Virus record (IMG/VR): IMGVR_UViG_3300006735_000146
Coordinates: 1 to 29,609 of that record
Length of the DNA stretch: 29,609 nucleotides
Strand: one strand, 5' to 3'
DNA from: a virus
The first letter of the stretch is position 1. The number at the start of each line of letters is the position of its first letter. A model generated the notes under the pieces. That model was not told the DNA's origin and made no database searches. It was given only the letters and a program-made list of their open reading frames with translations. The position numbers were made by a program, and so were the translations under genes. Shown piece by piece: positions 3,417 through 21,125 of this stretch.

Positions 3417-3815
3417 TCATTCCTTTATCTCAAAGTGAACTAGGTCATCAAATTTATTATCTTTAGTTGTCCTAGCGTTTTTACTTAGGCTGGAATCCGA
3501 CCAATCGCCCCCCCATCTTACATTAATGCCCATCTTTGAAGCTACCCCTAAAACAAATCCACCTAAATAATGAAAATCGTCTCTAGCGTTCCAATCAATA
3601 GGATATGGAGCAATGTCTACAGCTTTACCTTGCACGTGTTTACCAAATTTGGTTTTACTCTTGCCTTGCGCTACTAATTCGTTTTGTCTTTCTTGACTTC
3701 GCAACCCTTCTATAACTGTTATATCAAAGTACTTTACGACTTCATTTAAAACGTTTACTAACCGACTATCAACGCCTTTTAATCTTTGTTTTGATCTTTT
3801 ACCAAAGCGTGGCAT
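3417..3815 (-). CDS. M15-family peptidase endolysin
   Basis: A 132-aa single-domain protein matching the D-Ala-D-Ala / L-Ala-D-Glu peptidase fold of family M15. It carries the substrate-side segment EGLRS..RQNELVAQGKSKT (from about residue 36). The first zinc ligands are in KHVQGKAVDIAP (His60, Asp67), followed by RWGGDW (residues 100-105) and the terminal DDLVHFE (Asp124, His127). This is the usual length for a globular phage endopeptidase endolysin. It has no signal sequence, so it needs a holin to reach the peptidoglycan, and several membrane proteins suitable for that lie directly upstream. The gene abuts the upstream 77-aa membrane protein gene (stop and start adjacent). It should cut peptide stems in the murein at the end of infection. 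Confidence 0.88.
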   Translation of the reverse strand: MPRFGKRSKQRLKGVDSRLVNVLNEVVKYFDITVIEGLRSQERQNELVAQGKSKTKFGKHVQGKAVDIAPYPIDWNARDDFHYLGGFVLGVASKMGINVRWGGDWSDSSLSKNARTTKDNKFDDLVHFEIKE

Positions 3816-4050: not shown

Positions 4051-4194
4051 TTATTGTTTCCTTATGTTTACTATTTTATATCCTAAATAAATAATAGTCA
4101 TTATTGCTACTATACATTGTAATAACGTACTTATCTCTGTAAGAGAAAGTCCGTAATTCACTAAACTTGCTGATGCTACTTTCACACTATCCAT
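4051..4194 (-). CDS. 47-aa holin-like membrane protein
   Basis: This short gene reads MDSVKVASASLVNYGLSLTE and continues through a hydrophobic segment (LLQCIVAIMTIIYLGYKIV, about residues 24-42) to a basic end (NIRKQ). A short soluble N-terminus, one membrane helix and a positively charged C-terminus is the layout of small phage holins. Its ATG overlaps the stop of the upstream gene in a TAATG junction, so translation is probably coupled, and it supplies AGGAAACAA as the ribosome site for the next gene. Holin function is inferred from shape and from the endolysin two genes downstream; with several candidate holins here, which one forms the lesion is uncertain. Confidence 0.68.
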   Translation of the reverse strand: MDSVKVASASLVNYGLSLTEISTLLQCIVAIMTIIYLGYKIVNIRKQ

Positions 4195-4511
4195 TAATGT
4201 TTCCCATTTACTCTAGACAAACTGCCTTTTATTTCAGACACTTGATTGTCTAAATCATTTATTTCTTTTGTCATATTATCAAATTTTCTATCAAGCTTAT
4301 CGTCTGATTGATTCCATCTATTAATTAGCTTAATTATCATTCCTTCAGTGTTTTCAAGTGTTTCAGATTGACCCTTATTCTCTATCTCTAGCTTTCTTAA
4401 AGCGTCTGCTTGTTCGTTTCCTCTTTTATTCATTGAATAAACCATAAAAACGAACATAGCCCCTACTACACCTATCATTCCCGCTTCTGAGTATATAGCT
4501 AGAAAATCCAT
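4194..4511 (-). CDS. Membrane-anchored coiled-coil protein (BhlA/UviB-like holin candidate)
   Basis: 105 aa. An N-terminal membrane segment (about residues 10-26, AGMIGVVGAMFVFMVYS) is followed by a basic NKR border. A long charged helix then runs from about residue 30 to 97, with heptad-like spacing suggesting a coiled coil (LRKLEIENKGQSETLENTEG; NMTKEINDLDNQVSEIKGSL). Small proteins with this order occur as BhlA/UviB-type holins or as accessory lysis proteins. The ribosome site GAGGAGGAAT lies inside the 3' end of the preceding 33-aa gene, and the start overlaps that gene's stop (TAATG). It could also be an inner-membrane spanin-like component, although its helix would then have to face the periplasm. 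Confidence 0.68.
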   Translation of the reverse strand: MDFLAIYSEAGMIGVVGAMFVFMVYSMNKRGNEQADALRKLEIENKGQSETLENTEGMIIKLINRWNQSDDKLDRKFDNMTKEINDLDNQVSEIKGSLSRVNGKH

Positions 4512-4612
4512 TATTCCTCCTCTTGAGGACTACATTTACTACAGACCCAATTATCTGTATTGTTTATTGGTTTATCACAATCACTGCAATGGTTTGGTAT
4601 CGGTTGATGCAT
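4511..4612 (-). CDS. 33-aa zinc-ribbon-like miniprotein
   Basis: A tiny gene locked between two others: its ATG overlaps the upstream stop (TAATG) and its stop overlaps the next ATG (TAATG). The protein has two CxxC pairs, HCSDCDKP and WVCSKCSP, spaced as in a minimal zinc ribbon or rubredoxin-like knuckle, followed by an acidic end PQEEE. The exact coupling at both ends and the clean Cys4 pattern argue that it is real despite its length. It may bind zinc and act as a small regulator or adaptor; nothing in the sequence shows a partner. The codons for the EEE end also form the strong ribosome site (GAGGAGGAA) of the downstream membrane protein, so this gene may partly serve as a translational relay. 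Confidence 0.62.
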   Translation of the reverse strand: MHQPIPNHCSDCDKPINNTDNWVCSKCSPQEEE

Positions 4613-4950
4613 TATTTTTTCTTTTTTCTCCAACTAAAAGGGTTAAGGTTTAATTCTTTTTCAAAGAAAGATATACGCTCTTCCATTTCTTCTCTTGTTT
4701 TTTGTTCTTCTATTTGATTTTGTTTTACAAGTTCTAATATTTGACTATCAGCAAGTTCCATTCTTCGTTCAAGTTCTGCAAGTCTGTTCGTAATCTGTAC
4801 GTATCCATACACAATCCCAACAACCCCAAGACACAATTGCCCAAGCCACTTAATGTTAAGACTAATAGAAAAATTATCATCAATTTTTGCCATGCCGTAT
4901 GACCTATATGTCTTTGGTTTGTCACTCACTTTTTCTCTACTGTTTCCCAT
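4612..4950 (-). CDS. Single-pass membrane protein with coiled-coil tail
   Basis: 112 aa from the ATG at 4950. A polar N-terminus is followed by one hydrophobic segment (WLGQLCLGVVGIVYGYV, about residues 35-51). A strongly helical charged region follows (LAELERRMELADSQILELV; EEQKTREEMEERISFFEKEL) and the protein ends in RKKKK. An internal ATG at 4893 (MAKIDDNF) has AGGT upstream and would remove the 25-nt overlap with the preceding gene, so the true start may be there (93 aa). The layout fits an inner-membrane spanin subunit or a phage membrane protein of unknown role. The lipoprotein-like gene just upstream would be the natural partner in a spanin pair. Confidence 0.66.
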   Translation of the reverse strand: MGNSREKVSDKPKTYRSYGMAKIDDNFSISLNIKWLGQLCLGVVGIVYGYVQITNRLAELERRMELADSQILELVKQNQIEEQKTREEMEERISFFEKELNLNPFSWRKKKK

Positions 4951-5201
4951 TGCTCATGTCTATGACACCAGTTGTCTCCTATAAGTATTCCTCCTTGAGT
5001 AGTAGTTCTTACATACCAATGCTTTGTGCTATCTTGATCTGTTATAATCATAAAGTCTGTTGTAATAGAATCAGTAGGGGCTATATCTACTCCTGCAACA
5101 ATCCAATTTCCACTACACCCACTACAAGTAGTAATAATTACTAGTAAAAGAACTAATAAAGAAATCCACCCTGCAAGTACAATTCTTTCATTTTTATTCA
5201 T
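4926..5201 (-). CDS. Small secreted / lipoprotein-like protein
   Basis: 91 aa with a basic start (MNKNERI) and a long hydrophobic core (VLAGWISLLVLLLVIITT). The core ends at CSGCSGNW, close to a bacterial lipoprotein signal (small residues followed by Cys). The match to a lipobox is imperfect because the -3 residue would be Cys rather than Leu. The rest is a small beta-rich domain (DFMIITDQDSTKHWYVRTTT and GGILIGDNWCHRHEQW). Its ATG overlaps the pilin-like gene's stop (ATGA). It could be the outer-membrane spanin partner of the coiled-coil protein encoded next, but classical outer-membrane spanins are proline-rich and this one is not. A periplasmic protein working with the pilin-like product is an alternative. 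Confidence 0.62.
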   Translation of the reverse strand: MNKNERIVLAGWISLLVLLLVIITTCSGCSGNWIVAGVDIAPTDSITTDFMIITDQDSTKHWYVRTTTQGGILIGDNWCHRHEQWETVEKK

Positions 5202-5698
5202 GGCTTGTAATACTTATAAAAATCTTCAGGATTCTCTGTATCTACTACAACAAAGATTGGAGATACGATACTATTACCTGTGCCTGACCCACCAATAATG
5301 GCATATGCATATAAACCATTTTGATAAGGACTCTTGATTGTATCATTGTCAAATAAATGTAAAAAACTTGTGTCACTAAATACTGGTACAAACTGAGCCT
5401 CTAATAATTCTTCAACTTCTATTCTTCTGTTATCATTATCATCTAATAAAACACCCACACTACTAGTTCTATGTGCTTGACTTGGAAACTTACCCATACC
5501 ATTAACTTCTACTTGTTGGTTATACCACATAGTAGATGCTTTTGTAATCTTTTCTAAATTTGCTTTTGTCTGTTTAGCTTTAGCTCCCTCACCGATACGA
5601 CTAAAAGCAGGAGCTGCGGTAGTAGCCAAAGTAGCCATGATAGCCATGGTAACTGCAAACTCAGCCAAAGAGTTGCCTCTATTCCCCAACCCATTCAT
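5198..5698 (-). CDS. Type IV pilin-like protein with class III signal
   Basis: 166 aa. The N-terminus has an 8-residue basic leader ending in Gly (MNGLGNRG), then a hydrophobic helix starting NSLAEFAVTMAIMATLATTA and ending APAFSR. Counting from the residue after Gly8, Glu falls at mature +5 and Pro at mature +22, followed by Ala-Phe. These are the invariant positions of type IV pilins and type II secretion pseudopilins. The rest is a soluble domain (KANLEKITKASTMWYNQQVE, then a beta-rich region ending FVVVDTENPEDFYKYYKP) with the length of a small pseudopilin head. It overlaps the upstream gene by 20 nt and the downstream gene by 4 nt (ATGA), so it is an integral late gene. If processed by a host prepilin peptidase it could enter or block host pili or a secretion pseudopilus. 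A virion membrane-anchored role is the alternative. Confidence 0.75.
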   Translation of the reverse strand: MNGLGNRGNSLAEFAVTMAIMATLATTAAPAFSRIGEGAKAKQTKANLEKITKASTMWYNQQVEVNGMGKFPSQAHRTSSVGVLLDDNDNRRIEVEELLEAQFVPVFSDTSFLHLFDNDTIKSPYQNGLYAYAIIGGSGTGNSIVSPIFVVVDTENPEDFYKYYKP

Positions 5699-6221
5699 CC
5701 TTTTTCATTTCCTCTAAACATTCACTATGCGATAAAGCAGTAATGCCACTAACTCCTTTGACTTGGTCTAGAGTTCCATCAGCAATAGATAATTCATATT
5801 TAACAAGAACCTTTGTATTGTCACTATTCCATCTTGGAGCACCTAATTTGCCAAATTTAAACGCACACTCTTGCCAAGTTGGGTCTTGCAATGTAGTAGT
5901 ATCTACTTCTTGCTCTGTATACGTATACTCTTCATCTTTTTTAGGCACAGAATGAGACTCTAACATGAGTTTTTCTAATAACTCTGCCTTGGTATCGCCT
6001 GATGAATAATCTACGTCACAATCGTCCATATACGCCTTTATTTCAGCTTTTGTATTATCACTTGAAGGATAATAATCATATTTGTCTACAGATCGTGTAG
6101 CAGTCTTTTCAACATCCTTATAAGTGTACTCGTTCCAAGACAATCTATCCGCAGTTTTGAGTTTGTTTGGTAGCTTACCCTCATATACTGCTTTTGTTAA
6201 TATTAAATATGTATTAGTCAT
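5679..6221 (-). CDS. HeH/SAP-like domain protein in tail region
   Basis: I chose the ATG at 6221 (MTNTYLILTKAVY, 180 aa). It has AAGGAAAAC about 9 nt upstream and overlaps the LamG gene by only 8 nt; the open frame extends to 6281. The middle contains NTKAEIKAYMDDCDVDYSSG followed by DTKAELLEKL. That is the helix-extended-loop-helix (HeH/LEM-like) pattern often found in small phage structural or tail-assembly proteins. Flanking parts are beta-rich (LQDPTWQECAFKFGKLGAPR; KVLVKYELSIADGTLDQVKG). It sits between the fibre genes and the pilin-like gene. A fibre chaperone or minor tail role is plausible by position, and a DNA-contact role by domain, but neither is shown. Confidence 0.62.
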   Translation of the reverse strand: MTNTYLILTKAVYEGKLPNKLKTADRLSWNEYTYKDVEKTATRSVDKYDYYPSSDNTKAEIKAYMDDCDVDYSSGDTKAELLEKLMLESHSVPKKDEEYTYTEQEVDTTTLQDPTWQECAFKFGKLGAPRWNSDNTKVLVKYELSIADGTLDQVKGVSGITALSHSECLEEMKKDEWVGE

Positions 6222-9200
6222 TTTTATGTTTTCCTTTGCCATGCTTATAATTTTTTTGAATTTCGGTAGCTGATAATTCACGATTATAAAATTTTACTTC
6301 ATCGACTAACCCATCAAAAAAATTACCATTTCCCTCGTGTGTGCCTATGTATAAATAAGGATTAGTAATCTGAATTGAATTTGCTAATGTCTCTGGAGAA
6401 CCATCATCAATATATATTTTTGTTTGAGTATCATCATCAACTAAAGTTAGATAATACCATCTATCTGTAGACAATGTTGCAGTTGTGTACAACGCACTCC
6501 AACTACCGCTATAATAACTGCTTATAACTTTACCATCTCCATGTAATCCTAAATATCTTTCATTACTGCTATCAACTTGTATAATTCTTATCCAATTCGA
6601 TAAAGAGTTTGCTTTAATCCAACAAGAAATTGTATAAACTGAATAAGTAGTATTTGTGAAGTTAGCTTTTACATATTCACTACTACCATTTAACCTTAAC
6701 ACATTGCCACTTGGATTTTTTAACGGAAATCCTAATCCATCTTTGTTAGAGTTTAATCCCTCACGAATTGTGATTGAGTCTGGTGTACCCGCAACATTGC
6801 CTGTGTTGCCTGTGTTTAGTGTAGGATTACCACTTGTTGTACCATGATTACCATTACCACTTAAATCTTTTACTGTTGTAGCATTATCAAATTTAAAATA
6901 TGCAAGTAAATTAGAATTACTTGAATGGTCTGCGTTTATGCCTTGATTAAATTCGTTAAGTAAAAAAGGAGTATTTTTTAAATCAGAATAAACTGCAAAT
7001 TGAGCAATATCTATATTACAACTTCGAGAACCACCATCATATCCTATATGTAATGGTTCAGTATAAGCAGTAGCAGTTCCATTAGATGTAAAGTTTACAG
7101 TTTGTTCAACTCCATCTACATAAAATTTACATCCATATATATCATCAGCATCTAAAACAACTGCAAAATAATGCCATGCCCCATCATCTTGAGCCGATGT
7201 ATCGTTCCAATATCTATACCTTGAACCACCCATATATAATAATGGTCTATTACTGCTAAAATTAAAATGAAATCCTCCGATATGTTGACCGCCATTTCCA
7301 AATACACCTCCATTTTCTCCCGTTTCTGATGACTTTGCCCAAAATGTATAAGTAGCATCAGTTAAAGAAGTAATAGCGTTAGTAACTACTTCATCATTTA
7401 TTCCATCAAAGTTTAAATAACTCCACCCTCTTCTATCTTGCCATGTAGATACGCCATCGTTGCGCCAGTAACCTAATAAATTTCCAGACTTGGAGTGCGT
7501 AGTAGCATCTTTTATTACAGAATCTGCAAATAACTCATTTACTTCAGCTTGAGTCAAAGCATGATTCCATAAACTTAATTCATCAACTATACCATATGCT
7601 CTGTATGATTCTGAACCACCAGCATCCATTCCTACTCTCATGTCTGTATGGGAAGCACTAAGAGGTGCAGTTGTATTAGATTTGGAATCTGTTTTTGTTA
7701 AGACACCATTAATGTAAAAATTCCATGTACTACCATCACAAGTAAAAACTATATGATTAAATTTTGCATCGTCTGCATAAGCACCATATTGATATATTGT
7801 GTGAGCTGTATTGCTATTTTCAAGATAAACATAATATCTTCCACCCGCATTTCTATATAGCTTTAAATAATCAGTATATGTACCCTCTGTAATATCAAGT
7901 ATTGTCTGTATAGTATCAGTATTTTGACCATAGTGGGTAAGGCTAAAGCTAAATTTTGTTGAGGCAAAAGCACCTCCAATATTTTCCCATAATACTTCAG
8001 AACCACTTCCATCATTACCATTAAATCTTAATTTCTCATTGTACTTAACCAATGGGATCTGTGGAATAACTGGTTCATTTTGAGCAGTAGTAAAGCCAGT
8101 TGAGGATATTCCTACTTCTTTAACTGAAACGCTATTTATACTTCCTGTAAACCCTGTGCAATTAAAAGCAAATGAAGTATTTGAAGTTCCCGCAGTTATA
8201 TTAACTGTATGAACTGCTTGGCTACTTATAGCACTACTTTGTGTTCCATGTGCATATACTTTAAAACTTCCAGATGTGTAATCTGAAACATCAACAATTA
8301 CTTGATAATTTTTACTATTAGTTAATAAGCCATCTCTTCTATTTAATGCACTATTATTACTAAATACTAATTTATTTCCTGTAATTGTAGAGCCACTTAA
8401 ATTCCAAAATCCTGTATTTGATGTAAATTCTCTATCAGCAGAATTTGTAATCAACTCATCCCCAAAGAAATTTGTAGTAGCATGGTTGCCCATGAGGACT
8501 TCTTTGATTGAAATATTTTCTATAGTAAAATTATTACTACCATTTGTATAAGCATAAAATGCAGTATATGTACCTGCAGGAATAATGTATTCTGTGTATG
8601 TTCCATTTGCATTTTGCTCTGTTCCAAAAGTACCACCTAATCTTGGTCTTACACTTCCACTTACATAATTACTAACAGTAAACACTACTTTATATAGCTT
8701 TCCAGATATTACAGATGGTGAGTCTTGAATGTTTGTAAATTGAGTTGATGTATTAAATATTAAAGAACCATTAGAAACTGTTATACCACTAACTGAACCC
8801 CAATTAGTTCCAGATATAGACTCACTACCCAACTTCTTCTCACTATGGTCATACACAATGCTTTGTGGACTTTCGGGGTTAGCTTCACACATGGGATACC
8901 AAGCTACTAATGTTGATGGACTTGGTACAGACTCTGGCTTAAGGTATTGTAATTGTACCTCTGCTTCTGTTAATGCAGATGAGTAAACTTTAAAATCTGA
9001 AATAGAGCCATTTAAATAATTACCCGCTCTTCTACCGATGTACATATTTATACTGTCATTATCAATAGCACCAGAGTGAGAGCTTGTTCCATCTAATTTA
9101 CCATTTACATACCATGCTTGATTAGAGCCATTATGAGTAAAAGCAAGATGAGTCCAAGAACCAACTGGTATTGCAGTAGCTCCAACAGTATTTTTTCCAG

Positions 9201-9495
9201 CATTACTTATATTGCAATCAAAATTTATAAAGTTATTATAAATATATATTGACCAATTACGATTAGAGCTTTCATCATCTCTTGAACATATATGTATTGT
9301 TCCAGATACATTTCGATAAAACCAAAAAGAAATAGTCATATTTGACCTTGTAGTTGAGGTCAAGTCTCCGCAATCTAAATAATCAGCTACCCCATCAAAT
9401 ACTAATCCTCTACCGCCATATACCTCGGCTCTTGAAGCCACATCTGCTGTAAGTTTAGGAGAGTTTGCGTACCCGCTTTGTATCGTTGTAGCCAT
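6214..9495 (-). CDS. Giant LamG-repeat tail/fibre protein, 1093 aa
   Basis: 1093 aa made of repeated concanavalin-A-like (LamG/laminin-G-3 type) jelly rolls. The repeating signature is a start such as LVFDGVADYLDCGD, then a TISFWF-type strand, a WHYFAVVLD-type strand, FYVDG and a closing VKFYNRELSATEIQ-type segment. I count four units, beginning near residues 29, 480, 690 and 930. Between the first two are jelly-roll modules of another type ending in ISIKEV and VSVKEV, like carbohydrate-binding modules. Such proteins bind glycans and would serve as receptor-binding fibres or head decorations. The start overlaps the stop of the preceding LamG gene by one base. The C-terminus is basic (HGKGKHKND). 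No signal peptide or catalytic motif is evident. Confidence 0.82.
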   Translation of the reverse strand: MATTIQSGYANSPKLTADVASRAEVYGGRGLVFDGVADYLDCGDLTSTTRSNMTISFWFYRNVSGTIHICSRDDESSNRNWSIYIYNNFINFDCNISNAGKNTVGATAIPVGSWTHLAFTHNGSNQAWYVNGKLDGTSSHSGAIDNDSINMYIGRRAGNYLNGSISDFKVYSSALTEAEVQLQYLKPESVPSPSTLVAWYPMCEANPESPQSIVYDHSEKKLGSESISGTNWGSVSGITVSNGSLIFNTSTQFTNIQDSPSVISGKLYKVVFTVSNYVSGSVRPRLGGTFGTEQNANGTYTEYIIPAGTYTAFYAYTNGSNNFTIENISIKEVLMGNHATTNFFGDELITNSADREFTSNTGFWNLSGSTITGNKLVFSNNSALNRRDGLLTNSKNYQVIVDVSDYTSGSFKVYAHGTQSSAISSQAVHTVNITAGTSNTSFAFNCTGFTGSINSVSVKEVGISSTGFTTAQNEPVIPQIPLVKYNEKLRFNGNDGSGSEVLWENIGGAFASTKFSFSLTHYGQNTDTIQTILDITEGTYTDYLKLYRNAGGRYYVYLENSNTAHTIYQYGAYADDAKFNHIVFTCDGSTWNFYINGVLTKTDSKSNTTAPLSASHTDMRVGMDAGGSESYRAYGIVDELSLWNHALTQAEVNELFADSVIKDATTHSKSGNLLGYWRNDGVSTWQDRRGWSYLNFDGINDEVVTNAITSLTDATYTFWAKSSETGENGGVFGNGGQHIGGFHFNFSSNRPLLYMGGSRYRYWNDTSAQDDGAWHYFAVVLDADDIYGCKFYVDGVEQTVNFTSNGTATAYTEPLHIGYDGGSRSCNIDIAQFAVYSDLKNTPFLLNEFNQGINADHSSNSNLLAYFKFDNATTVKDLSGNGNHGTTSGNPTLNTGNTGNVAGTPDSITIREGLNSNKDGLGFPLKNPSGNVLRLNGSSEYVKANFTNTTYSVYTISCWIKANSLSNWIRIIQVDSSNERYLGLHGDGKVISSYYSGSWSALYTTATLSTDRWYYLTLVDDDTQTKIYIDDGSPETLANSIQITNPYLYIGTHEGNGNFFDGLVDEVKFYNRELSATEIQKNYKHGKGKHKND

Positions 9496-12269
9496 TATTT
9501 AAGCACTCCTGTATTTGAAGTTATTTTTTTAATTGAAAGATGGCTAATTACTGTAACTACACCATTTGAATAAACAGATAAGGCAGATGAAGTGTTTCCA
9601 TTTATATATACTATATGTGTTCCAGTAGAAGTAATTCCAAATCCATGATAAAAATTCACTACAGTTCCATTTCTTACTATTCCAGCATGTAAAAAATTCT
9701 CACAAGAATCTATAGTTATTGTCATTTTGTATATAGCACTTGCATCATCAAAAACATTATTTTGAGACAAATAAGGGGAAAAGCCACCACTCCCATTATG
9801 TGTTACAGTTCCTGCACTAATATCTATTGCCCATCTATTACCAGTTTCTGTTGGTGCAAGACTCCACACATCTGTTGTAGTAAAATCTGTATTAGTTACT
9901 CTTTCTTCACTTGTCTCCCCTGTAGTTACATCTTGAGTAACACCATTTGCTGAACTATCAGCATCAAGGGGATAGTACGCAACGAGGTCGTTAGTGACGA
10001 CTTGAGCAGTAATACTATCAATCGTCATTACAGGGTTTATTGCTCTGAATTGAAAATTACCAGCACCATCAGATACAAAATACCAAGTGTGAGTACCAAC
10101 TCCATTAGATGAATCAATTCCAAATCTTACTGATGTTAAAGCAGAACCACCTTGATGAGATATTGAACCACTTGTGTATGAAGAACAAACTATTGTTACT
10201 TTAATTAAATCTGAAGTGTTCCAAGAATATCCAGAATGTGATAGAGATGGATAATTAGTTGTTCCCGAAGATGCTCCATCAAATACCATTTTACCATTAA
10301 ATGTAATATCTGAAGAAGGATAACTATTTAAAGTAACTCCACTACCATCAGAAAAATCATGTGTTAAAACATTACTACCCAATGTACTCTTAACATCTGC
10401 GGGTATCTTGGCATAGGAAGTGGATTCCATGACGGATTGGATTTGTGCTTGGGTTAATGCACCTTGCCAAATTCCTACTTGGCTAATAGAGCCATTAAAT
10501 CTTCTATCCATACCTGCTTCTCTTGCACCAATAGTTAAAGAAACATTATCATTGTCTATTGATCCTGTAGATGCGTCTGAATCTTCTAAAATGCCATTAA
10601 TATATAATTTTAAATTAGAACCATCATAAGTACCTGCAATATGATACCACTCATTTGCACTAATAATCGTACTGCTACCTACTTGAGTATCGCTTAATCC
10701 TTTGCAATTCCAAAATATTTTTTCATCTGTGTATAAATCAAAATAGTAATTTCTATTTGTACCATCATCTCTTCCTACTAACAAAGCATGTTGATTTATT
10801 GCATCTGCTTTAATCCAAGCACTTAAAGTAATTGAATTTGTTATATCAAAATCTGTGCTATCTCCTAAATCAATATAATCTGAACTACCATTAAAACTCG
10901 CACTACCATTTCCAATCGCATCTGCTTGTGATTCAGCAATGTCTATCGCCCGTGGTAAAACGGGTGAATTATTTCCATATACTGATGTGGTAGTTGTTGC
11001 TCCTTGAGTTAGTGTCGCATCATAGTGGTTATTATTATTAGATATACTAATGCCACCACCACCCGCATTATTAGTCACTTTTTTAAGAGATATAGTTTTA
11101 AAATGAAGTTCTACACTTGTAGATGCACTCCTAATCCATAAGTAATTTTTTCCTGTTGCGTGAAAAAAATACCCAGTAATTGTTTTTTCAGATGCACTAC
11201 CATCGCTACCACTCCAATAACCTTCTTTCCATTTTACATCAGAATCTGCAAAACCATAACTACTTCCCACACCTAAAGCAATTTGTTGAGCGTGTTGTCC
11301 ATCTACTCTTGTATAAGTTATTTCGAGTTTATATAATTGATTTGCTATTAATGGTTCTAATACAGAGGCATTAATGCCATTAATCGCTACTTTTGCTACT
11401 ACAACATTTTTAATTTTTAAAGCACCTTCTGAATAAATTCCTGTATCTGCAAAAGCTGAATCAGTACCACCACTATGAAAAGTCCAAGCACCTTGAGTTG
11501 CAAGACTTCCATTATTAGCCATTACCTCTGTGTATTCTGTTGTTCCATGACTATTTAAATAAATGTTAGTTGGAAATGAAGTAGTAATTGCTCCAGTACC
11601 AATAGCGGGTGTATCCATACGACCAGTAGCGTCTACACTATCAAGAGACTGCCACATTTCTAAACTTGTTTTTTCTACAGAGCCTAACTGACTGTAAGAC
11701 TTGTTCATAACGGATTGGACTTCTTCGGGAGATAAAGCTCTTGACCAAATACCAAGATTTGCCATATTAAATATTGCTCCCGCACTTGAATAACCAATAG
11801 TATCTAATGCAAAAGTATGCGTACTTGTATGCGTACCACTTGCGATTGCATTTAAATATGTTTTAATATTTCCATTAACATCTCTTGCAAATACAATATG
11901 ACACCATGTATTATGAGGAGTGTTACTTATTATTGCTTTGTATGCTCCATTAATTCTAATGGTAACTTGTCCATTATGATCTTTAACCAAAATATCATTA
12001 GATGAGCCAGGTGTACTATCTTTTAAAATTAGTTTATAATCAGATTGAGTATCACCTTTAAACCAAAACCCAACAGTAAAAGCATCAGTCAAAGTTATTT
12101 TAGAAAATGAAATCTGTTCTCCCGAATCAAACGATGTCGAACCCCCTGATGGAAATGCAAGAGTGTCTGACCTATTTGATTTGAAGTCGAGGTATAACTT
12201 GAGGTTGTCCTTAACGTATGTTAAGAGGGATGCTCCCCCTTTAGCTACGCTTACTGCTAATCCGAGCAT
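9495..12269 (-). CDS. Large LamG-repeat tail/fibre protein, 924 aa
   Basis: 924 aa. The N-terminus (MLGLAVSVAKGGASLLTYVK) could be a virion anchor or assembly tag. Two LamG-type domains follow, near residues 35-190 (FTVGFWFKGD, closing LGIWSRALSPEEVQSVM) and 455-620 (SFNGSSDYIDLGD, ITLSAWIKAD, closing VGIWQGALTQAQIQSVM). Between and after them are carbohydrate-binding-like jelly rolls ending ISLKKV and LSIKKI, the same modules as in the neighbouring 1093-aa protein. The two genes therefore look like diverged duplicates sharing domain cassettes. Role inferred: glycan adhesion at the tail or capsid. It precedes its partner with a one-base stop/start overlap, so the two are probably made in fixed ratio. 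Confidence 0.82.
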   Translation of the reverse strand: MLGLAVSVAKGGASLLTYVKDNLKLYLDFKSNRSDTLAFPSGGSTSFDSGEQISFSKITLTDAFTVGFWFKGDTQSDYKLILKDSTPGSSNDILVKDHNGQVTIRINGAYKAIISNTPHNTWCHIVFARDVNGNIKTYLNAIASGTHTSTHTFALDTIGYSSAGAIFNMANLGIWSRALSPEEVQSVMNKSYSQLGSVEKTSLEMWQSLDSVDATGRMDTPAIGTGAITTSFPTNIYLNSHGTTEYTEVMANNGSLATQGAWTFHSGGTDSAFADTGIYSEGALKIKNVVVAKVAINGINASVLEPLIANQLYKLEITYTRVDGQHAQQIALGVGSSYGFADSDVKWKEGYWSGSDGSASEKTITGYFFHATGKNYLWIRSASTSVELHFKTISLKKVTNNAGGGGISISNNNNHYDATLTQGATTTTSVYGNNSPVLPRAIDIAESQADAIGNGSASFNGSSDYIDLGDSTDFDITNSITLSAWIKADAINQHALLVGRDDGTNRNYYFDLYTDEKIFWNCKGLSDTQVGSSTIISANEWYHIAGTYDGSNLKLYINGILEDSDASTGSIDNDNVSLTIGAREAGMDRRFNGSISQVGIWQGALTQAQIQSVMESTSYAKIPADVKSTLGSNVLTHDFSDGSGVTLNSYPSSDITFNGKMVFDGASSGTTNYPSLSHSGYSWNTSDLIKVTIVCSSYTSGSISHQGGSALTSVRFGIDSSNGVGTHTWYFVSDGAGNFQFRAINPVMTIDSITAQVVTNDLVAYYPLDADSSANGVTQDVTTGETSEERVTNTDFTTTDVWSLAPTETGNRWAIDISAGTVTHNGSGGFSPYLSQNNVFDDASAIYKMTITIDSCENFLHAGIVRNGTVVNFYHGFGITSTGTHIVYINGNTSSALSVYSNGVVTVISHLSIKKITSNTGVLK

Positions 12270-15081: not shown

Positions 15082-16410
15082 TTACGCAGTGATGTTGAAT
15101 AGCTTGTGACTTTCAATTAGCGTTACGCCAATTCCTTCATCAGACATGTACTGGTCTTTAACGCCATCGTAAGCATCATCAGTTAAGATGTTAGCTTGGA
15201 ACTTTGGCGCTCTATACTGTGCATGAAACAGATTTTCATCTGAAACTACAAGCATAGTTTTGTTGTACGCATCTCTTAGAACTGGAGTTGGAATTAACTG
15301 CAATGCACCATGAGGTGATTCAAGAACTCTATAGTTAAAACCAAGAGCATCTCTTTTCATATCACCAAGATTTACAGTCCAACCAGAATTACCTGCAAGA
15401 CCAGAAGCACCAGACATTTTAGAAAAGTAGCTCATTGCACCCATTCCACAAAAAGCACGTTTAACACCCGCTTCAGGAACGTATTGAAACACTTTTTCCA
15501 TGTCGTCTACAAATTCACCATAAGAATAACTTGCTTCTGAAATTGTGAATCTGTTTTGGTCAGCACCTGATGCAGCACCATGCTTTTCAATTGCAGGAAT
15601 TACACCCATACAAGAACGAACACGATTTCCATTAGCATCTGATAGATGATAATCTGTAGATGCACTTGAACCATCATTAAAACCACCACTTATGTTAATT
15701 GGCGAACGACCAAATAAGAACGCACGTTCTTTTTGAATCTTATGTTCTTGTGATTTTTGATCCCTTAGTCTAGATAATTCAGATGACTCACCTCTTAATG
15801 ATGCTTCTAACAAAGTACCAGTAATTTGAAGAGGAGTCTTAAATATCTGACATTGGTTGTAGACTACTTGTAATTCATCGCTCCAAGCAGTACCAGCAAC
15901 TGTGCCTTCTCCGTATGCGTTACCAATAACTACTAAATAATCGTCAGTTGCCATAGTTATATCGGCATCACCCATATTTTTAACTGACCATTTTGTAGCA
16001 CCTTTGCCTACAATTAGACAAACACCTTTTTTAGTAGTTTTAGTAGAATCCCAAATTTCAATTTGAAGTCCGATATGACTATCATATCCTGTATTTCCAC
16101 CTTCACCTTCAAGTCCAACTAATGAACTTGCTTTTAACTCAATATCATCTGCTGAATTGTCTTTTGCAATTGCTTGATTATTTGCATCAGAATGAGCTTG
16201 AGCTTCCTGTTTTTGCCAAGGGTTGCGATGTTCAAACATCTTGAACTGAGGGTCTTTTAATCCTGAAATTGTTTGCTGGTTAGCAACAACTGTAGTAAAA
16301 GGAGTCACGTCAGTCCAGAGTTCTTTAACAACATTTGGGCGCATGTAAAAATCTCGTCTATCTGTGTATAATACACCTGAAGAGCCGAGTGTTTTTGCGT
16401 TATTTGCCAT
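15082..16410 (-). CDS. Major capsid protein, SU10-like
   Basis: 442 aa. It has an early PNVVKELWTDVTPFTTVVA segment, then the middle pattern YNQCQIFKTPLQITGTLLEA with LRGESSELSRLRDQKSQEHK and RAFLFGR. This order (NxxQIF, TGT, long charged helix, fixed RAxLFG) is how SU10-type HK97-fold capsid proteins look. The N-arm precedes the helix that lines the inside of the shell. C-terminal strands include ALGFNYRVLESPHGALQLIP. Ribosome site GGAGAAAACAAAAC. It follows the scaffold-like gene by 29 nt and is followed by the decoration candidate. The major capsid role is well supported by order and motifs, the SU10 grouping less so. Confidence 0.85.
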   Translation of the reverse strand: MANNAKTLGSSGVLYTDRRDFYMRPNVVKELWTDVTPFTTVVANQQTISGLKDPQFKMFEHRNPWQKQEAQAHSDANNQAIAKDNSADDIELKASSLVGLEGEGGNTGYDSHIGLQIEIWDSTKTTKKGVCLIVGKGATKWSVKNMGDADITMATDDYLVVIGNAYGEGTVAGTAWSDELQVVYNQCQIFKTPLQITGTLLEASLRGESSELSRLRDQKSQEHKIQKERAFLFGRSPINISGGFNDGSSASTDYHLSDANGNRVRSCMGVIPAIEKHGAASGADQNRFTISEASYSYGEFVDDMEKVFQYVPEAGVKRAFCGMGAMSYFSKMSGASGLAGNSGWTVNLGDMKRDALGFNYRVLESPHGALQLIPTPVLRDAYNKTMLVVSDENLFHAQYRAPKFQANILTDDAYDGVKDQYMSDEGIGVTLIESHKLFNITA

Positions 16411-16439
16411 GTTTTGTTTTCTCCGTTAAAATTAAACCA

Positions 16440-17378
16440 TTATCTTCTGTTTCGCATCAAACCGAGATTAAAAGCATCTTCCTCATTAACTTGAGGCTCT
16501 GATTGCGCACTCACGACCCCTGCGGGTGGAGGCGTATTCAAAGTGTTTTGTTTTTGCTTCATCATTTCGGCTCGTTGCCTTTGCTCAACTTCAGCTTGAC
16601 TTGGTGCGGAGCGCATTTTATCTAAACGAACAAGATTGTCTAACGTTAAAGAATCAGGACTAGAGTAATACTGCAAAAACTCTTGAGCTTTGTCGGGACT
16701 ATATCCGTATTTACCCATAAGTTCATTTTTTGTATTATCTGTTTGACATTGCATTTCATATTGTTGTTGCGCTTGTCGTATTTGATTCTCTCTTGCTTCT
16801 AACTCTCTTATTCTATATTGTTCAGCTTGTTCACTATAATCAATCATTTCATCTCTATAGTTATCAATTGCTTCACGATATTTATAACTTGCGCTCTCTG
16901 AATCCATGTAAGCTTCAGAAGAGTCGTAATTGACAGGTTTAGCGGGACGCACTGGTTTCTTTGGGGATGCCATCTGTTCGTTATTATCGGCAACAGTTGG
17001 GGTATCTCCAGAAAGTGATTTAGCAACGCCTTTTAAGATGTCAGGGTTTTCTTGAATGTAGTTCGCAATTGGTGCGACTTTTTCATATTGACCCAACTCA
17101 TCTTGCAGTTTGTTGTATTCACTTGCCTTTTGGTCGTATTTGCTCTGCCAGTATTCAAAACGTGAAGTATCTTCCTTGGGAGCTTCCTCTTGAGGAACTT
17201 CTTCTAAGTTTTGAAATGTTGGAGGTGCTAGACTTTCATCATAGCTTTCCAACTGATCTACAGGATTTGGAACTGCTTCCTCACCTGACCCACCTTCTTG
17301 AATTGGCGCATCTCCCCCTAAATCAAAATATTCAGGTTCGGTTGCTTCAGCATTCAAGGTTTGTGTTTGTTCAGACAT
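16440..17378 (-). CDS. Scaffold-like capsid assembly protein
   Basis: 312 aa, highly charged and without globular motifs. An acidic, Pro-rich first third (about residues 1-75) is followed by long helical stretches (RFEYWQSKYDQKASEYNKLQ; EQYRIRELEARENQIRQAQQ). A Gln-rich region comes next, and the protein ends basic (NLGLMRNRR). Acidic start, coiled-coil middle and basic C-terminal clamp is the layout of tailed-phage scaffolding proteins, and its place between portal and capsid gene is the standard one. No serine protease motif is evident, so I favour a non-proteolytic scaffold. Ribosome site AGGAGAATACATA. Confidence 0.78.
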   Translation of the reverse strand: MSEQTQTLNAEATEPEYFDLGGDAPIQEGGSGEEAVPNPVDQLESYDESLAPPTFQNLEEVPQEEAPKEDTSRFEYWQSKYDQKASEYNKLQDELGQYEKVAPIANYIQENPDILKGVAKSLSGDTPTVADNNEQMASPKKPVRPAKPVNYDSSEAYMDSESASYKYREAIDNYRDEMIDYSEQAEQYRIRELEARENQIRQAQQQYEMQCQTDNTKNELMGKYGYSPDKAQEFLQYYSSPDSLTLDNLVRLDKMRSAPSQAEVEQRQRAEMMKQKQNTLNTPPPAGVVSAQSEPQVNEEDAFNLGLMRNRR

Positions 17379-17405
17379 TATGTATTCTCCTATAAGGGCT
17401 ATTTG

Positions 17406-19613
17406 TTAATTAACAGCAACAGACCCTCGGTTTGTTTCTTCTTGTCTTAAATCTTCTTTAGCTATTCTTAGCTCATCATTTAATCTTGCTTCAAATAGCT
17501 TGGTAGCTGACTCGTTCTTATTAGAAGCTGAGTTCAGCTTTGTTTTAAATTTTTCTATTTCAACACGTTTTCTATCGTGCGTTGATTCACGTTGTGCAGT
17601 TTGTAAATCACCCTTAGTATTTTTGAGTTCTTCTTCTAATTGTTCAATCATTTGTTGTTGTTGTTGGATAATGCTTGTTCGTTGCATAACGCCTTCTGTA
17701 TCTGCTACTTCTGTTTGTTCTAACACTTCTTGAGCATCAATAATGCCTTTTTCATACAAGGTCATGTAATAATCAAATCTTGCCCATCTGTTTGATGGAA
17801 GCGTTGAGCCACTAACAACAATTAAATCATATTTCCCAATTGTTACGTCATTAACACGTCCTATAATTTCATTTGTAAAGTCATCGTAAATAGGTTGATT
17901 CATAGTAGCTTCTGCTAATCTGCCATCTGGCTTCATAATACGAACTACTTTTTCATCTGTATATGTTTGCTGAATTAATTGAACAATTACTTTACCAATC
18001 TGATTTAATGCTTCATCAAGGTCATCAATCTTTGATTTAATTCTTCGTTGAGCGTATTCATCAATAGCAACAGTGCCTTTGTACGTACTTGGAGCAGCAG
18101 ATGGGTCGCCATGCTGAAGAGGGTGAATACCAAGAATATGATATATGCTTTGTTTTGCATCTTCTCTATTTTTGTATAATTCATTGGGTAACGGAATCGG
18201 CCCCGCTACAATTGGCGTACCAAGTTCAGGGTCAAATTCAATTACGCCTGTACCTGCTCTTGCCCACTCTTCTTCTAATTGCCTACGATTCATTGAACCT
18301 CGTGGTATTAAAAGTTTTGTATTTGTAGAACTAGATGCGTGAGCAATAATTAAAGATGTAACCTTGTTAATGTATTCTTGAATTGGCTTTACAAATCGAA
18401 CATCGCTCATTGGATAAGGGTTGCGATTATGCCTGTTCATTAACGTGACTATTGGGTAATTGTCAATATCCATGATGTAATCATAGAGCAATTTTCCCCC
18501 CGCACATAAAATCCTTCTAATTCTGTCGGTTTTTATTTTATTAGCTATAATAATTTTTAATTCAACTAAATCAGCTTTAGTAATAATTTCTATTTGATGT
18601 CCGCTATTAGGTATTGATTCTTCATGTTCAGGGCCTGGCATCATTGTTGGCTGACCTGTTTGCAAATCTTCCATATAATGATAAATACCGCCAGTTGCTT
18701 CATAAATACCAATCAGTTCTGCAACACTAGCTTTTTCTGTAATATAATTTGTACCTTCAGCGTTTGTCATTTTAATGGCTTGTTCTTGCTCGTATTCAGC
18801 ATAGCCTTTTTTATTTAAAACAACTTCTTGTCCTGTTAAAGTGTCTAATACGTGAAAATAATTATGTTTTTCTTTTTTATATCTGTCAATGACTTCATAG
18901 TATTTTGTATCAGTAGAATAAGTGTCATTTGACATTGGCCCGATGCTTTGGTCAAGTGTAGACTCTCTTGTCATCGCAGGGTATCTATCATTTGCAGATG
19001 TTTCCATATCTTTTGTATTTGCTTGTGGATATAACTGCTTTAATTGTTTTTCTGTAAACAAACGTGCAATAATAATATCAGAAGCATCTCGACAAAACGT
19101 ATCCCTACTATTTGGGTCTATGTAAACATCAAGGGGGTCAATACTATGTAAACATACTTCCCCACGTCCAAAATCTTTCATTGGATCAACATAAGCCTGT
19201 ATGACCCCCATTCCTTTTACATAATAATCATCAACAACTTGTTTGATTTGTACATTACCACTTGATTTATCCCATATATAAGACATGATGTCCGCAAATA
19301 TTCTACCGACTTTAGTGTCGCTATCATCTCTACCTGTAGATTGAAATTTTGGTTTGTTTGCTGTAATTAAGGCTTTAGCTTGTTCAACTGCGGGATGAAC
19401 AACATTGTCTACAATAGGGTTTTGAGACCTTTTTTCTAAAGTTGCAACGTGAGAAGATTTCCATTGTTGATTATTGCGAAACTCATCGTCTTCCATTGCT
19501 TGAGTCGCCCATTGCGACCTCTCTGAATGGAATTGGTCTAAAAGCTTTTCTGATTCGGTAACGACTTTGTTTTTGGAGTGAGGCATATTGGAGGGCAAAT
19601 TATTATCCTCCAT
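17406..19613 (-). CDS. P22-like portal protein
   Basis: 735 aa, the size of P22-type portals (about 725 aa). The N-terminal part has AMEDDEFRNNQQWKSSHVAT, the acidic-then-NQQW pattern of this family, and NPIVDNVVHPAVEQAKALIT. A central region has DYYVKGMGVIQAYVDP and SIDPLDVYIDPNSRD. C-terminal helices from about residue 640 (QQQQMIEQLEEELKNTKGDL; EIEKFKTKLNSASNKNESAT) would form the barrel. Twelve copies would form the DNA gateway at one capsid vertex and dock the terminase. It starts 18 nt after the terminase gene. ATG at 19613 has AAAGG very close upstream; MPHSKN at residue 10 is a weak alternative start. Confidence 0.88.
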   Translation of the reverse strand: MEDNNLPSNMPHSKNKVVTESEKLLDQFHSERSQWATQAMEDDEFRNNQQWKSSHVATLEKRSQNPIVDNVVHPAVEQAKALITANKPKFQSTGRDDSDTKVGRIFADIMSYIWDKSSGNVQIKQVVDDYYVKGMGVIQAYVDPMKDFGRGEVCLHSIDPLDVYIDPNSRDTFCRDASDIIIARLFTEKQLKQLYPQANTKDMETSANDRYPAMTRESTLDQSIGPMSNDTYSTDTKYYEVIDRYKKEKHNYFHVLDTLTGQEVVLNKKGYAEYEQEQAIKMTNAEGTNYITEKASVAELIGIYEATGGIYHYMEDLQTGQPTMMPGPEHEESIPNSGHQIEIITKADLVELKIIIANKIKTDRIRRILCAGGKLLYDYIMDIDNYPIVTLMNRHNRNPYPMSDVRFVKPIQEYINKVTSLIIAHASSSTNTKLLIPRGSMNRRQLEEEWARAGTGVIEFDPELGTPIVAGPIPLPNELYKNREDAKQSIYHILGIHPLQHGDPSAAPSTYKGTVAIDEYAQRRIKSKIDDLDEALNQIGKVIVQLIQQTYTDEKVVRIMKPDGRLAEATMNQPIYDDFTNEIIGRVNDVTIGKYDLIVVSGSTLPSNRWARFDYYMTLYEKGIIDAQEVLEQTEVADTEGVMQRTSIIQQQQQMIEQLEEELKNTKGDLQTAQRESTHDRKRVEIEKFKTKLNSASNKNESATKLFEARLNDELRIAKEDLRQEETNRGSVAVN

Positions 19614-19631
19614 ACCTTTCGGTCTACATCG

Positions 19632-21125
19632 TTAAGTTATTTGCCAATCATTTGTTTTAAACCATCTTGCCCCAAGAGTGGGGATTTCAGCATCTTCATG
19701 ATGAGGCTTGTATGAACCTTTAAATGCATAATAAAGTCCATCAAGTATATCGTCATGCTTACCCCTTGGAAATAAAAGCATTTCATCTTCAAGGTTTTGC
19801 ATGTTTTTCATAATAAAGACTTCTTTTTTAGCAAAGGAAGGCTGAAGACTCTCTAATCGGTGAGATTTACTAGTTCGAGGGTTTTCTTTTATATTTAAGC
19901 CAGGAATAAACAATCCTTCTTCATCGCATCTCATTTGTACATATTGACGCAACATTTCCTGATACCCTACAGATTCAATACGAGTCTTAGTACTGCGAAA
20001 TTTTCTAAAATTATCTACAATAGCTTCAGCTAACGCTAGTGGCTTTGCATGTTTACGATAATAAGGCAAAGCAAACTTCCTACCTTTGTCATCAATTGCT
20101 AAATTAAATATAACAGAATAATCAGCAGTTTGTTTTACACTTGAGGCTGGGTCTACTCCTGTAAATATATTTATAGGTACAGATTCATTTATTTTTTCTC
20201 CATCAAGCTCTGTGAGGTCTAACATTGGGTTTCCTTCTTTATTAAAACGAAGTTTTCCATCATAATACTGAATATCTTCTTTTTTAAACAATTGGTCTTC
20301 ATCACCAACGATCTCACACATATATTCTCTGTAAAACACAGATAATCTGTTAATAGACTCTAATTCTTCTTTTTTCTGTATTAATTTTTTTACAGGCCAC
20401 CATTCTTCCCATAAAGAGATGCTTTTTTCTATATTTGGCTTAAATACTCTATTTGTCCACCCTTTCATCACTTTTAATGTTTCAACCAAACATCGTTCAT
20501 GTTGTGGAGTACCAATAACAATGATTCTTCCTTTTAAGGGGTCAACCGAAGGAACTGCTGATTGTAAAAGCCATCTAAGGTTGTGTTCCATTGCCTCAGC
20601 GGTCTTGGTGTTGTTTTCATCTTCAGGGTCATCTACAATTATAAGCGTAGGACGTTGGTTGCCTACTTTGATACCCCTTAACTGCTGACCTGTACCTTTA
20701 CAAATAATCATCGAACCATCTTTTAGTTCTACTTCAGCTTTTGCCCAACTTCTAGCAGAATGTTGCCCCCAATAACCAAATAACTGCCTAAATTGCTGAG
20801 AATAGTCTAAACAGTCTTTTATTGTACCCAAAAGCTTTACCGCATGGTCTTGTGTTCTTGAAACCAAGACAATTAGCTTTTTTCCTTTATCAAACATCAA
20901 ATGGTACATAGGAAGTACGCCACCTACGATTGAACTCTTGGCGTGACCTCTAGGGGCAATAATATTTATTTGTTTCTTATCTTTTTGCAGTAAATCCTTT
21001 GCAATCGTATAATGAAACTGTGGAGATGGTACAGAAAACATTTGAGGCATAGCTATTTTCCCAAACAAGACCATATCTTGCCTCAATTTGTTTATAATGG
21101 CTTTGTTATTAACTTTTGCTGACAC
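19632..21125 (-). CDS. terL: Terminase large subunit
   Basis: 497 aa, complete. The ATPase domain shows Walker A at 57-65 (APRGHAKSS), Walker B at 162-169 (IIVDDPED) and a coupling motif near 203-208 (VIGTPQ). The nuclease domain shows the RuvC-like acidic positions: Asp325 in FTGVDPASS, Glu384 in TRIESVGYQ and Asp458/459 in GKHDDILDGL. It is thus the packaging motor and headful or site-specific nuclease that works with the small subunit and portal encoded beside it. The start is GTG at 21125 with a moderately placed AGGT; no better ATG exists before the conserved N-terminus. Confidence 0.95.
   Translation of the reverse strand: MSAKVNNKAIINKLRQDMVLFGKIAMPQMFSVPSPQFHYTIAKDLLQKDKKQINIIAPRGHAKSSIVGGVLPMYHLMFDKGKKLIVLVSRTQDHAVKLLGTIKDCLDYSQQFRQLFGYWGQHSARSWAKAEVELKDGSMIICKGTGQQLRGIKVGNQRPTLIIVDDPEDENNTKTAEAMEHNLRWLLQSAVPSVDPLKGRIIVIGTPQHERCLVETLKVMKGWTNRVFKPNIEKSISLWEEWWPVKKLIQKKEELESINRLSVFYREYMCEIVGDEDQLFKKEDIQYYDGKLRFNKEGNPMLDLTELDGEKINESVPINIFTGVDPASSVKQTADYSVIFNLAIDDKGRKFALPYYRKHAKPLALAEAIVDNFRKFRSTKTRIESVGYQEMLRQYVQMRCDEEGLFIPGLNIKENPRTSKSHRLESLQPSFAKKEVFIMKNMQNLEDEMLLFPRGKHDDILDGLYYAFKGSYKPHHEDAEIPTLGARWFKTNDWQIT

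Follow-up and report, generated by a model that had tools for sequence, protein, structure and literature searches.

Why should a marine tailed phage carry, among its late genes, a gene for what resembles a subunit of a bacterial surface filament, and is the product truly a pilin? Genes for type IV pilins ordinarily belong to bacteria, whose type IV pili often serve phages as receptors and are also targeted by phage inhibitors. The locus lies in the viral record IMGVR_UViG_3300006735_000146, analysed here over its whole 29,609 nt (the window), where a minus-strand gene at 5198-5698 (166 codons, from an ATG at 5698 to a stop codon that ends at 5198) encodes a type IV prepilin-like protein; the initial annotation had named no strand, and the plus strand over the same interval is closed. 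The product begins with the predicted leader MNGLGNRG (5675-5698, minus strand), continues after the predicted cleavage site as NSLAEFAVTMAIMATLATTAAPAF, and carries Glu+5 and Pro+22 in the N-terminal helix of the mature protein (5501-5674, minus strand). The leader, Glu at mature +5 and Pro-Ala-Phe at +22 to +24 are all present as the initial annotation had claimed. Its description of them as exactly those of type IV pilins holds for the motif positions and is slightly overstated otherwise, because Asn takes the place of the usual Phe at mature +1; neither Phe nor another hydrophobic residue occurs there, all homologues having Asn. Because position +1 varies among known pilins, this Asn is not decisive against pilin identity.

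A motif test combining Gly-1, Glu+5, Pro+22, an uncharged hydrophobic stretch and a basic leader is positive for 1 of the 61 open reading frames in the window, the 5198-5698 gene, and for none of 18,300 shuffled frames; over the 10,202 frames of all loci, positives occur only in pilin-like families. Searched over the whole 29.6-kb record, the Pfam model N_methyl (PF07963) finds this gene alone, at E=3.5e-4 and 16.4 bits for a cut-off of 21.2, and against the single protein it gives 13.8 bits (E=0.046, cut-off 21.2 bits). The other single-protein matches (NCBIfam PilA at 0.0011 and GspG at 0.1, PHROG 11596 at 0.01) also lie below curated cut-offs, the NCBIfam scan reported no match to TIGR02532, and every family match falls on the N-terminal region. 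The picture is clearer for a profile of 58 homologues (alignment A4), in which Glu+5 and Pro+22 are invariant: its four best matches in the PDB are all type IV pilins (geopilin at 9.9e-5 and 0.0011, MshA at 0.0024, PilA at 0.061), and hhalign aligns it to the phages' own canonical pilins, described below, with E=9.3e-7 over 74 columns that take in the full length of the N-terminal helix plus the first loop. A cadherin likeness in a single-sequence PDB search (E=0.0075) was dropped, being absent from the profile searches.

The protein is like type IVa pilins and type II pseudopilins (PF07963, TIGR02532, TIGR01710 GspG, PilA, MshA) in its basic leader ending in Gly, in Glu+5 and Pro+22, in its long N-terminal helix and pilin-sized soluble head, and in the significance of its PDB profile matches. 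It differs from them in Asn+1, in an Ala/Thr-rich helix (mean Kyte-Doolittle 1.6 versus 2.1 in canonical pilins), in scores below cut-offs and in being phage-encoded. An AlphaFold model of medium confidence (pLDDT 68.5, pTM 0.60; another run reached pLDDT 46) has a long helix and late strands, an arrangement that would suit a pilin, with helices at residues 9-27 and 32-66 in the part that aligns with PDB pilins and canonical phage pilins. Foldseek found nothing significant in the PDB or BFVD, and the head has been matched to no known pilin head; the minor pseudopilins 3cfi and 5bw0 were set aside as fold matches, their E-values of 8-10 being at noise level. The proposed pilin-family identity is supported by profiles (PDB, hhalign) and by motif positions invariant in all relatives, and is weaker than first claimed in that the single protein stays under every curated cut-off. 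With family membership shown at profile level, we read the product as a true type IV prepilin that has diverged.

Homologues are found in marine viral contigs, at least 64 of them distinct. The scan behind this count returned 90 loci with a homologue and retained 80; no same-class homologue was found among INPHARED phages. The mature part is exactly 158 residues long in all 79 homologues with an intact end. Leaders vary widely in sequence and length, and positions -10 to -4 are less than 50% conserved, with Gly at -1 in 64 of 64 distinct homologues and Lys or Arg at -2 in 62 of 64; from mature +1 to +6 conservation is 100%, and the mature part as a whole is nearly invariant. This step coincides with the predicted prepilin peptidase site after Gly8. 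Gly-1, Glu+5 and Pro+22 are kept in all homologues, close relatives included, so that the loss of these positions which the initial annotation had named as a refutation did not occur. A membrane-anchored phage protein that merely looks prepilin-like, its N-terminus being an ordinary signal anchor, would fit the sub-threshold single-sequence scores and a helix less hydrophobic than those of canonical pilins. We consider it very unlikely, since the three motif positions are never lost, conservation starts at the cleavage site, profiles match pilins, and a homologue is clustered with canonical pilins in large phages.

The pilin gene is under purifying selection: dN/dS is about 0.10, with median pairwise differences of 0.59 at synonymous and 0.11 at nonsynonymous sites. 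Since pilins usually come from bacteria, one might suspect leftover host DNA in a contig that was wrongly assembled or classified, a notion the initial annotation had already rejected and which we regard as practically impossible: about 80 independent viral contigs have the gene within this same operon, under selection at a dN/dS near 0.1, and this synteny refutes it. Two scans of contigs from bacterial genomes yielded no homologues with patterns specific to the podoviral class, a specificity that leaves room for host homologues in the broader family.

Two features of the podoviral proteins may be mentioned here. The head contains an EF-hand-like loop of 12 residues, DDNDNRRIEVEE (residues 86-97; 5408-5443, minus strand), in which D86, N88, N90, I93 and E97 are invariant across a 21-sequence podoviral alignment (A1); calcium binding by this loop is a guess from its sequence, and the loop has no counterpart in the larger pilin class described below. 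At loci L028, L032, L034, L041, L043, L044, L051-L053, L057 and L077 the frame is open upstream of the pilin motif, and the resulting extensions, a putative long leader, are Cys-rich (KKCACIFFCTCNNKG, NMCSCIYNCICSKKG).

All neighbouring genes lie on the minus strand, and the pilin gene follows the terminase, portal, capsid and LamG genes and precedes TM/coiled-coil and endolysin genes. At the head of the operon are the capsid, scaffold-like, P22-type portal and terminase genes (15082-21125). Upstream of the pilin gene come two tail or receptor-binding-type proteins rich in LamG (Laminin_G_3) repeats (6214-12269), very large and highly variable among relatives, which are probably receptor-binding tail proteins. 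As first described, the pilin gene is overlapped on both sides, by 20 nt (5679-5698) with an upstream gene of about 188 aa (5679-6245), which overlaps the pilin start, and by 4 nt (5198-5201) with a downstream gene of 91 aa (4926-5201) that has an N-terminal TM segment and a lipobox-like Cys. Because both neighbours are overlapped, a promoter or terminator of its own is unlikely. Next come two TM and coiled-coil proteins, of 112 aa (4612-4950; after the pilin in nearly all podoviral loci) and of 105 aa (4194-4511; weak PHROG matches, holin/spanin-like), and an M15-type endolysin (3417-3815; PHROG 465, E=4.6e-40). The 105-aa protein is itself 85-92% identical across phages whose terminases share only about 31% identity, and its gene has been relocated beside the terminase gene in some of the phages.

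Because these lysis genes adjoin, the main rival to the interpretation given below is an aid to egress, in which the pilin would join the secretion pseudopilus or pilus of the host late in infection and help to disturb the outer membrane or to export a lysis factor, in concert with the TM/coiled-coil and endolysin genes. Conserved lysis-type genes do follow the pilin directly in nearly all podoviral loci, a pilin of a Vibrio phage likewise lies near an amidase, and secreted cationic peptides are also encoded in the pilin regions of T4-like phages. We nevertheless find this role unlikely: phages with the same lysis genes exist without the pilin, the pilin has no lysis domain, and in some pilin-carrying phages the 105-aa gene sits beside the terminase instead.

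The initial annotation had proposed a survey of related phages for the gene at the same locus, and its outcome was divided: the gene is in the same operon in many relatives and missing from that operon in others. Defining loci by the downstream 105-aa gene, independently of the pilin, we counted 55 with the pilin and 12 of the same arrangement without it, after leaving out 6 of 18 apparently pilin-less loci in which the 105-aa gene lies elsewhere. L384 offers the cleanest empty site: both flanking genes are retained there and overlap each other directly; G025 and G032 are empty sites resembling it, and G024 was not counted as pilin-less because its contig ends inside the operon. Identity of the pilin to that of the window stays at 83-91% while that of the capsid falls from 83% to 25% and that of the terminase down to 31% (L060, L062). 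The pilin gene is accessory, present or absent at one and the same insertion point in phages with unrelated backbones, and the best reading is of a 'moron' in the late operons of marine podoviruses that moves horizontally between phages. The initial annotation had recognised neither this optional status nor the wider set of phage pilin clusters described below. Its near-constancy across differing backbones is what would be expected if its partner were a machine of the host. The same observations bear on the alternative use that had been offered, in which the protein would belong to the virion, anchored to it or displayed on its surface. A late-operon gene beside tail genes could encode such a component, although relatives that share the capsid, portal and tail genes lack it and its N-terminus is of the prepilin membrane type, which makes this highly improbable.

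Scans by N-terminus pattern and by alignment recovered a second, larger class of homologues, with mature lengths of about 194-207 residues, on contigs of up to 132 kb. Residues 6-166 of the window protein align with these at 34-41% identity (E down to 1e-27). The T4 Gp23 capsid gene was found on 5 of 20 such contigs tested (E about 1e-77), and PhoH, SbcC-like and RuvC-like genes lie near the larger-class pilins. Here the homologue is the first gene of clusters of 2-4 pilins: all 49 distinct members with sufficient sequence downstream have one to three canonical pilin genes (GFTLIEL...P) immediately after the homologue, as against 0 of 64 podoviral members. These downstream pilins exceed the Pfam N_methyl cut-off (1e-8, 9e-7, 1e-5; 19 of 20 contigs) and also that of the NCBIfam prepilin model TIGR02532. 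A few genes before the clusters stands a separate protein (L121:6464-7108; also in L125 and L149) whose residues 6-56 match N-domains of pilus ATPases in a PDB search (PilF 2e-5, MshE 0.009, PilB 0.03); Pfam gave no recognition of this domain. Between this gene and the pilin cluster a thioredoxin-like secreted protein is encoded.

From such strings of pilins it seems probable that the viruses add self-encoded subunits to the surface-filament machine of the host. We hold as a possibility, somewhat short of an even chance, that at least two unrelated marine phage types carry filament-subunit kits and build a virus-encoded pseudopilus with the host's assembly machine, the kit amounting to one pilin in podoviruses and, in T4-like phages, to two to four together with the stand-alone protein that bears a pilus-ATPase-type domain. 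A different use of a lone subunit would be jamming, a dominant-negative pilin that stops twitching, DNA uptake or secretion and leaves receptor specificity unchanged. It would suit podoviruses, which carry a single subunit with no partner pilin in any of the 64, and a conservation high enough to suggest a fixed partner. Several filament-competent pilins in a row in the large phages look more like building than breaking, however, and Glu+5 is retained, so that we rate jamming as rather improbable.

The explanation we favour, and to which we give an even chance, is that of a late-operon 'moron' prepilin that is processed by the host and enters a host filament, changing or blocking its use as a receptor. 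The protein would be made late in infection and inserted in the inner membrane, where the host prepilin peptidase would cleave after Gly8, with N-methylation following. Glu+5 would then allow entry into the host's type IV pilus or type II secretion pseudopilus, and the altered or blocked filament would become unusable as a receptor by further phages or by the phage's own progeny, superinfection exclusion or progeny protection being the likeliest benefit. In T4-like phages the homologue may act in this way together with one to three further phage pilins. What favours receptor modification or superinfection exclusion as the purpose is that the gene can be absent and yet stays constant from one backbone to the next; this purpose is our guess, drawn from position and parallels.

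Among phage proteins that modify type IV pili is Tip of phage D3112, which acts on PilB. The window protein would share its aim of altering the host pilus, with the difference that Tip targets the assembly ATPase and the window protein would work as a filament subunit. Pilin-like genes of phages are already represented in PHROGs, by 3433 ('pilin', moron category) and the unnamed 11596, 27437 and 13280, which resemble the window protein in being phage proteins with prepilin-type N-termini. One canonical pilin of a T4-like phage matches them at 4e-7 to 1e-12, whereas the window protein gets no further than E=0.01 with 11596, and the entries come with no described function or cluster architecture. 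Another case is Vibrio phage 033B/GH32, in which a gene annotated as hypothetical (OP331229 39233-39706; L433:4001-4474) adjoins small terminase and amidase genes and encodes a protein that in the PDB matches the MSHA pilin MshA best and whose prepilin N-terminus is above the TIGR02532 cut-off. This too is a phage pilin-like gene near lysis and packaging genes, though MSHA-like, with an unrelated head, and from another phage group and host; the comparison suggests an independent parallel. No description of phage-encoded type IV pilins was found in open full texts, subscription journals and preprints lying outside that scope, and the conserved optional podoviral pilin and the ordered multi-pilin clusters of T4-like phages look new in their form. 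Here the filament subunit itself seems to come from the phage, and widely so in the sea. If true, this would be a way, open to testing, for phages to remodel or disable a surface machine of the host, and a phage pilin matched to a host pilus could become a handle for host assignment.

As to the host of the window phage, no tRNA genes were found in the window, and its TerL has no close relative among isolates (less than 28% identity). Marinimicrobia, considered as host on a likeness of sequences, were dropped when the literature gave no link. A family of secreted cationic peptides, with a signal peptide, a lysine-rich stretch and the C-terminus GFFSK[VI]FGSK, is encoded at L149:1787-2026 and also at L169, L182, L192-L230, L255 and the podoviral L300/L306; it is possible that these act as outer-membrane disruptins. 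They are common to the T4-like pilin-cluster phages and to pilin-less relatives of the window phage, a hint that the two phage groups share a host type.
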